A DNA stretch of 64,000 nucleotides from Sphingobacteriales bacterium (lineage in GTDB: Bacteria; Bacteroidota; Bacteroidia; Chitinophagales; Chitinophagaceae), in NCBI GenBank assembly GCA_027484425.1, contig JAIXSZ010000063.1:1-64000 (forward strand), given 5' to 3'. The position numbers and the translations under genes were made by a program. The notes beneath the pieces are model-generated. The model did no database searches. It had not been told where the DNA came from and worked only from the letters and a program-made list of their open reading frames with translations. Position 1 is the first letter of the stretch. Every line of letters begins with the position of its first letter. This document shows, piece by piece, positions 44,054 through 46,444 of this stretch.

Positions 44054-44205
44054 CATCTGGTCGAGGCGTCTCGCCTCGTCCTCTTTTTTTCGTCAGCGTC
44101 CTCGCTGATTGGCGAATGCAAAACGAAGCTAATGAGCAACAAAAAACCAATTTTGTGGATAAAATACCCCCTGCCAACACCCACTTTGGCTCGTTTTTTG
44201 CGGCA
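44054..44205 (+). repeat. 152-bp hairpin repeat, copy 1
   Basis: Matches 45282-45433 with about five differences, counted by eye. It starts with a perfect 7-bp hairpin (CGAGGCG 44062-44068, loop TCT, CGCCTCG 44072-44078), then a T-run (44084-44090), a second hairpin (CAGCG, loop TCCT, CGCTG), and closes with 'tcgttttttgcggca'. The first hairpin plus T-run would act as a terminator for the gene ending at 44043. Weaker similarity continues for about 40 bases beyond both copies. Between the two copies lie the DUF6934 gene and its small partner. Confidence 0.9.
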
Positions 44206-44329
44206 TACAATTATAGGTAAATTTGAAATCACTCAGTTTTTATTTATTAGTTTCGCCCTGTGCATTTAGACCGAGGGTTACCTTTCTGCACAAATAACAC
44301 CTACATTAGCCATTGTTAACTAACAAATA

Positions 44330-45281: not shown

Positions 45282-45433
45282 CATCTGGTCGAGGCGTCTC
45301 GCCTCGTCCTCTTTTTTTCGTCAGCGTCCTCGCTGATTGGCGAATGCAAAACGAAGCTAATGAACAACAAAAAACCAATTTTGTGGATAAAATGCCCTCT
45401 GCTACCACCCACTTTGGCTCGTTTTTTGCGGCA
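45282..45433 (+). repeat. 152-bp hairpin repeat, copy 2
   Basis: Near-identical to 44054-44205 (hairpin 45290-45296 with 45300-45306, T-run 45312-45318, second hairpin, 'tttggctcgttttttgcggca' end, shown in part). It is not directly preceded by a gene stop: 300 bases without a good gene separate it from the 56-aa gene, and part of that is the diverged element. Confidence 0.9.
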
Positions 45434-45484
45434 GGTGGTTGGTAAGTTATTTTGAATTTTCTCAGTTATTATTCATTTATTACA

Positions 45485-45850
45485 GTATGTGAGGCATACA
45501 TGCACTCACCACCTGCAAAACAGAATGTTATTGATAATCAACGACTTATACCCCAAAACATAGGAAACTACCGGAAACAAACCGGAAAATCCTACAAACA
45601 CATACTAAAAATGTCCGTACTAATGAACAAACTTCAACCGATAAAACCCAACCAATGCAGCTTCAGTATCAAAAACAAAATAATACCCTAAATAATTATC
45701 AATAACTATCACCATATCATCCATTCCGGTACTTACAACATGCAAAAGTGAATAGTATTGATAATCAATGACTTATACCCAAAAACGTAGGAAACAACCG
45801 GAAACAAACCGGAAAATCCTACGAACATAGTAACGAAAAATCTGTACTAA
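45485..45850 (+). repeat. 366-bp direct repeat, copy A (two 95-bp sub-repeats)
   Basis: Matches 46079-46444 with a constant offset of 594 and about 93 percent identity by eye. It holds two sub-repeats of about 95 bp: A1 45529-45624 and A2 45756-45850. Each has a dyad TTGATnATCAA near its left end, then 'accggaaacaaaccggaaaatcct', i.e. two direct ACCGGAAA motifs about 11 bases apart, enclosed by TAGGA...TCCTA (perfect CGTAGGA/TCCTACG in A2), and ends in 'ccgtactaat' or a close variant. Confidence 0.9.
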
Positions 45851-45875
45851 TAAACCTTACCCACCTGAACGAGAT

Positions 45876-46049
45876 ATGTTTGAAAACGAATTACAAATAG
45901 AACAAAGTAACAGTACACAAATGCAACCTCTAGCACTTTCTGATGAAGATTTTGCCGAATTGTCACAACTTGCCAATGAGCCTTTTGGCAAAGACAGTAT
46001 AACTTTGCAGGAGTTTAATTGCATAATGGAGAAATGGCTTGCGAAATAA
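45876..46049 (+). CDS. 57-aa small protein between the two 366-bp repeats
   Basis: The frame encodes a 57-aa acidic protein (MFENELQIEQSNSTQ...) with 'LALSDEDFAELSQLANEPF' and an end 'LQEFNCIMEKWLAK', helix-rich and protein-like. It fills the only unique segment (45851-46078) between repeat copies A and B. No family is recognised. Its context suggests a cassette gene. Confidence 0.55.
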   Translation: MFENELQIEQSNSTQMQPLALSDEDFAELSQLANEPFGKDSITLQEFNCIMEKWLAK

Positions 46050-46078
46050 TCACTGCTAATTAATATTTATAACGATTG

Positions 46079-46444
46079 GTATGTGAGGCATACATGCACT
46101 CAACACCTGCAAAACAGAATGTTATTGATTATCAACGACTTACACCCAAAAATATAGGAAACGACCGGAAACAAACCGGAAAATCCTACAAACACATACT
46201 AAAAATATCCGTACTAATGAATAAACTTCAACCCATAAAACCCAACCAATGCAGCTTCAGTATCAAAAACAAAATAATACCCGAAATAATTATCAATAAC
46301 TGTCATCATATCATCCATTCCGGTACTTGTAACATGCAAAAGTGAATAGTATTGATAATCAATGACTTATACCCAAAAACGTAGGAAACTACCGGAAACA
46401 AACCGGAAAATCGCACAAACACATACTAAAAATATCCGTACTAA
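46079..46444 (+). repeat. 366-bp direct repeat, copy B (two 95-bp sub-repeats)
   Basis: Sub-repeats B1 46123-46218 and B2 46350-46444, same orientation and spacing as A1 and A2 (227 bases start to start). B2 carries 'tcgcac' instead of 'tcctac', breaking the outer dyad seen in A2. The spacer between the two sub-repeats is nearly the same in A and B (131 bases). The repeat ends about 70 bases before the promoter of the cyclophilin operon. Confidence 0.9.

Follow-up and report, generated by a model that had tools for sequence, protein, structure and literature searches.

The four repeats in a 960-bp region of the 64,000-nucleotide stretch of DNA analysed here (the window) are best read as one of more than 50 dispersed arrays of candidate binding sites. 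The host is related to Flavipsychrobacter stenotrophus, and about 190 copies of a core of around 77 bp are found in these arrays, 150 of them in the first 39 loci (from a profile search, one being a split match) and about 40 in other loci. Because several contigs of the draft genome end inside an array, this count is a lower bound, and the arrays help to explain the breaks in the assembly. We tentatively propose that they are pac-like binding-site arrays of domesticated small-terminase proteins, which may have grown by tandem duplication.

In the window, two direct 366-bp units, A (45485–45850) and B (46079–46444), both on the forward strand, lie at an offset of 594 bp and are 92.6% identical, in line with the roughly 93% given in the original prediction. 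As it also described, they contain four 95-bp copies in the forward orientation, starting at 45529, 45756, 46123, and 46350, which we found to be 83 to 94% identical; each has a TTGAT[AT]ATCAA dyad and two direct ACCGGAAA words 11 bp apart. The dyad of copy 1, TTGATAATCAA, is located at 45531–45541, with its words at 45570–45577 and 45581–45588; that of copy 2 at 45758–45768 (words at 45797–45804 and 45808–45815); that of copy 3 at 46125–46135 (46164–46171 and 46175–46182); and that of copy 4 at 46352–46362 (46391–46398 and 46402–46409). A TAGGA...TCCTA box had been assigned to every copy, but it is complete in only three of the four, as copy 4 reads TAGGA...TCGCA. The core that is conserved throughout the genome starts some 17 bp upstream of the 95-bp copy, at a stretch resembling ACCGGAAAAGTGAATAG, whose sequence is degenerate in the four copies of the window. 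Upstream of the array, at 45371–45433 on the forward strand, there is a divergent leader segment (TTGTGGATAAAATGCCCTCTGC..CCACTTTGGCTCGTTTTTTGCGGCA), and positions 45373–45755 match a leader profile built from 30 arrays at 57 bits. An isolated second copy of this segment (44143–44207, forward strand) belongs to a 152-bp direct duplication (44054–44205 and 45282–45433) that is 97% identical. The 57-aa open reading frame reported between the units is present at 45876–46049 on the forward strand and shows 38 to 47% identity to the C-terminal half of proteins of about 80 aa, which are encoded beside a ParE-like reading frame in several other species of the genus. It is thus probably an N-terminally truncated, orphan antitoxin of a ParE/RelE-like pair, with the toxin assigned by eye. 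Rfam matched only a tRNA in the window, and the viral contigs searched gave no match.

The original prediction depended on the repeat occurring beyond this locus, and a 960-bp query from the window gave 144 matches in its own genome, which places the pattern far beyond chance. An array usually has two to six copies in one orientation, spaced mostly 159 to 240 bp apart, with recurrent values near 159, 182, 193, 204, and 225 bp and a few longer gaps. Arrays are headed either by a gene or by a conserved leader of about 250 bp (CCACATCTCAAATTGTGGATATCTTAATC...TTGGCGCACTTTTTGCGGCATCAGTAGAGCG), the latter in most arrays whose start is covered. Within an array, the spacers mostly resemble one another and are non-coding, and even those above 240 bp mostly lack open reading frames, the exceptions being the truncated antitoxin of the window and a Sel1-like gene; a 2.6-kb gap at one locus (L019) lies between two arrays that each have a leader. 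Close matches are limited to two sister species, and a pattern search of named genomes found matches on 29 contigs of one F. stenotrophus MAG. The single match in a Chlamydiae MAG (L084) has the dyad stretch in common, with no ACCGGAAA words seen beside it. Gene names given without a family search were assigned by eye.

Given a leader followed by repeated units, one could imagine that the leader drives transcription of repeated genes for small RNAs or peptides. The leader does fold better than shuffled sequences (z −2.1), and short ATG reading frames start in the leader and in the spacers, but the RNA fold of the core is not notable (z −0.2 and −0.7), the differences in unit length are not multiples of three, and the core has stop codons, so we regard such genes as very improbable.

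The core itself has the consensus ACCGGAAAAGTGAATAG[TC]A-TTGATAATCAA-[CT][GC]A[CG]TTA-n6-CAAAACACATGAAAnnACCGG[AC]AACAAACCGG[AC]AA, that is, a TTGATWATCAA dyad between direct ACCGGAAA words. Over about 250 copies, the dyad positions are 94 to 100% conserved and most ACCGG positions of the downstream word pair 88 to 99%, while the variable core positions fall to 45 to 65%; between the last two words, the spacing is 11 bp in 195 of 204 copies and 12 bp in the others. Such uneven conservation points to sites that are kept at the DNA level. As a separate observation, many units have their ACCGG word interrupted by a hairpin module of about 33 bp (TTTTAGTAGCCATAGCTTTAAGCGAAGGCTACC; in L025, L034, L043, L115, and L165–L175; for instance, at L043:4717), which sits in frame inside terminase-like genes too. 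The 12-mer of this module was found only in array-carrying loci.

With a dyad core and directly repeated arm-like words, the copies have, in sequence, the anatomy of attachment sites, which is what led to the original proposal of tyrosine-recombinase cassette arrays, in which the dyad would be the core site, the ACCGGAAA words the arm sites, and the spacers the exchanged cassettes. The same dyad occurs amid different words in other species, and a few spacers do carry genes (the antitoxin remnant and the Sel1-like protein), and both points favor cassettes. Nevertheless, no recombinase gene adjoins the arrays. The genome has five PF00589 genes, two of which are Xer-like by length (about 303 aa) and score, and the three other integrases are all located away from the arrays; the sister species, despite its 61 exact sites, has no match to an integrase of the PF13102 family; and 92 kb around thirty recombinase loci of related genomes contain no dyad, against a chance expectation of 0.2. 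A distant cognate recombinase could exist, but since none is linked to the arrays in this or related genomes, and most long spacers are without a gene, we retain the anatomy and drop the cassettes, which we now consider hardly probable. Moreover, arrays are found at matched sites in both sister species, which argues for inherited positions rather than moving cassettes. One of the integrase genes (L118, G000 C90:24500-34500) adjoins an apparent serine tRNA gene, probably as part of an integrated island unrelated to the arrays.

Other repeat families defined by mobile elements or recombination were also compared. Integron attC sites and tyrosine-recombinase arrays likewise consist of direct repeats with a dyad and arm-like words and spacers of variable length, whereas the arrays described here have no linked integrase, and their spacers are similar and non-coding. 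The consensus lacks the RYYYAAC/GTTRRRY boxes of attC, and its single-strand DNA fold is weak (z −1.2 to −1.7), so attC was rejected. A CRISPR-like nature was rejected because the spacers of one array are alike. As for REP/RAYT systems, the genome has two Y1 transposase genes, one at a distance of about 3.5 kb from an array and one in an examined stretch without an array; the GTAGCCATAGCT hairpin turned up only in array-carrying loci.

The second type of array is headed by a gene for a helix-turn-helix protein, and it is this gene that suggests what may bind the sites. The gene is present in this genome in roughly a dozen copies or more with at least 83% identity, some of them cut by contig ends, and homologs in other species of the genus are about 24 to 48% identical. 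Its protein is matched by PHROG 4151 (E 7e-20) as well as by several small-terminase profiles, and Bacteroides phage p00 has a homolog that carries the annotation of small terminase subunit and is encoded directly upstream of the large terminase; the protein is thus homologous to phage small terminase subunits (TerS). In about a dozen gene copies, the core is read in frame as TTG ATA ATC AAC GAC TTA ... AAA ACA CAT GAA ... ACC GGA AAC AAA CCG GAA, giving the peptide LIINDL..KTHE.TGNKPE. There are typically two to four such cores per gene, in the C-terminal half of the protein, and one further, non-coding core usually follows 20 to 60 bp after the stop codon. Repeated words are therefore present within and beside the gene itself, where they may serve as bound sites. 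One copy, on contig C51 (L043) and encoding 437 aa, lies between a probable toxin–antitoxin pair and a PolX-like gene as judged by eye, and the neighborhoods of the other copies were covered in part.

Homologous genes in other species of the genus also carry these words. CGGAA occurs near their 3′ ends at 1.57 per 300 bp against a background of 0.59 (p = 9e-4), while five of seven control pentamers were flat, the other two being CCGAA (p = 0.007) and CGAAG (p = 0.05). Pairs of CGGAA spaced 10 to 11 bp apart number 18 in the 18.2 kb near gene ends compared with three in the 88.4 kb elsewhere, an enrichment of about 29-fold, although these pairs are not all independent because some of the 28 genes are close relatives. 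Given that spacings of 10 and 11 bp are not codon multiples, the signal appears to act at the DNA level, with the same phasing as in the arrays, yet the codon phases of CGGAA are uneven (45/18/12), so a constraint at the protein level contributes as well. Both the words at 3′ ends and those flanking dyads were noticed first and tested afterwards against background.

Phage P22 has its pac site inside the TerS gene (PMC9611059), and this, together with the phased words at the 3′ ends of the homologs, is why we propose the words as TerS-like sites. According to our favored but tentative explanation, the core of about 77 bp would be a protein-binding site composed of the dyad and helically phased direct ACCGGAAA words, the latter bound by the multi-copy, TerS-related helix-turn-helix proteins of the genus. 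The TerS-like genes carry the same words near their own 3′ ends, as P22 does with pac inside terS, and arrays are located behind either the leader of about 250 bp or a TerS-like gene; their units would be gained and lost through tandem duplication, unequal crossing-over, and conversion. The result could be many fixed nucleoprotein complexes along the chromosome, which might serve in autoregulation, in chromosome organization, or as packaging-type initiation sites. Protein binding, the pairing of protein and motif, how units are gained and lost, and what the arrays do in the cell are all inferred from sequence comparison. The likeness to P22 (PMC9611059) lies in a TerS-homologous helix-turn-helix protein whose own gene has repeated words toward its 3′ end; the difference is that here the genes are chromosomal and multi-copy, no large terminase is linked to them where inspected, and there are about 190 dispersed sites.

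Comparison of the two sister species fits array sites that are inherited, with tandem gain and loss of units. At matched sites, an array is present in both, with six copies versus one at L036/L093, one versus one at L189/L085, and four versus four at L044/L071; at the last pair, for example, the spacing differs, which is the kind of variation between related genomes that the original prediction called for. The mean identity is 86% between copies within an array, 85% between orthologous arrays, and 80 to 83% for other pairs. For the array in the window, no ortholog was identified in the sister species, where L072 has only the repeats and the leader in common with it. Looking for empty sites in the sister species, we found none; one candidate (G000 C56) was rejected as it holds a single copy.

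These same data invite the thought that the arrays are a selfish, non-autonomous intergenic repeat of the minisatellite or MITE kind, propagated by slippage and gene conversion, lodged in genes too, and with motifs that have no function for the host. The elements are multi-copy and mostly intergenic, with a leader and then tandem units; close matches are confined to the two sister species, and the six copies versus one at a matched site, as well as the hairpin module within the ACCGG word of many units, are what such an element could produce. A comparable element is BrickBuilt from Porphyromonas gingivalis, a MITE/minisatellite with 23-bp units without spacers and small inverted-repeat ends, of which there are 19 forms in one genome with a narrow host range (PMC4596501). 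It is likewise a dispersed, intergenic element of Bacteroidota in which a leader precedes tandem repeats, but the arrays described here have cores of about 77 bp in units of mostly 159 to 240 bp, and their cores are also coding inside a terminase-like gene family. We would not expect position-specific conservation in neutral junk, nor, in other species, homologous genes with phased words toward their 3′ ends, nor a dyad found class-wide; inspection of array ends by eye revealed neither terminal inverted repeats nor target duplications, and no empty site turned up in the sister species. Thus, we hold a selfish repeat to be unlikely, though a serious competitor. Abundant intergenic direct-repeat arrays of varying copy number have also been described as STAR elements in staphylococci (PMC3532100) and as TAACTGA repeats in Beggiatoaceae (PMC4679880). 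They resemble the arrays in layout but are unrelated in sequence. To our knowledge, neither family has a dyad core or a linked terminase-like gene.

The dyad extends well beyond these arrays. The ATTGATWATCAAYNACTT pattern occurs 128 times in this genome and 61 times in the sister species, one to seven times in many relatives, and 16 times in one distant class member; most sampled class members have none, and a reversed control pattern is almost absent. By its occurrence across Bacteroidia, the dyad is a class-wide site. Small dyad arrays exist in other species, with three dyads at 216/214 bp in L304, two at 197 bp in L303, and two at 142 bp in L301, and some dyads stand amid other 7-mer words, such as TGAGCAA, CCCACAA, TGCCCCA, and ACAAGGT. 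At least four clustered 7-mers accompany nine of 79 dyad sites compared with 39 of 3277 background windows (p = 1e-6). Within about 8 kb (less at contig ends) of 20 dyad loci of other species, we found neither a terminase-like gene nor a recombinase; the dyad is therefore probably bound by a protein of its own, and other species have several terminase-like genes and few dyads. As many of these loci have other words or none, different binders may serve the dyad and the words.

A class-wide dyad could also be the operator of a conserved Bacteroidia regulator, with arrays acting on adjacent genes or as decoys. In several Chitinophagales, the rplM-rpsI-rpsB operon has the dyad upstream of its promoter (L233, L239, L241, L242, L243, and also L226), possibly as a conserved operator, and in one genome (G008; L238, L296, L297, and L300) the dyad is found in closely similar regions upstream of a paralogous secreted-protein family (MKNFFKSIAIAAVATFGFATASHA...). 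The arrays, on the other hand, have no consistent orientation or distance to neighboring genes, some abut the 3′ end of a gene, and several copies with phased words exceed the needs of a simple operator, which makes transcriptional regulation an improbable purpose for them.

Array orientation is non-random along the chromosome: taken in the direction of the array, flanking GC skew is negative in 42 of 55 arrays (p = 1e-4) and, in this genome alone, in 32 of 42 (p = 9e-4), the latter figure being given separately because the 55 include some orthologous pairs. Whichever strand a gene is on, its third-position skew has the same sign. Several of our statistics were devised after the pattern had been seen, and each was compared with background. 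A bolder version of the binding-site proposal, which we consider conceivable but rather unlikely, would be that a phage packaging protein was domesticated and multiplied and that its pac-like words, together with the class-wide dyad, spread into more than 50 GC-skew-biased arrays, forming a chromosome-wide network of sites for the organization, packaging, or transfer of chromosomal DNA. We know of no description of a network of this kind. If the proposal is correct, bacteria would have turned a phage terminase subunit to a new use, binding chromosomal DNA at dispersed site arrays of its own. Should the arrays be packaging starts, they would point to a new gene-transfer system and, if not, to a new nucleoprotein or regulatory network. 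TTGATWATCAA combined with ACCGGAA phased at 10 to 11 bp offers a testable motif pair for an uncharacterized Bacteroidia-wide site.

Two minor observations concern repeats in other species. Terminase-like homologs in L181 and L182 have different in-frame repeats (for example, SSQNTNQQSPSPFRAG, four times), as if terminase-like genes collect repeats. In G178 (L276, L292, L293, and L311), longer inverted repeats enclose dispersed elements in which TTTACCTTGTTT/ACAAGGTAAA words surround the dyad.
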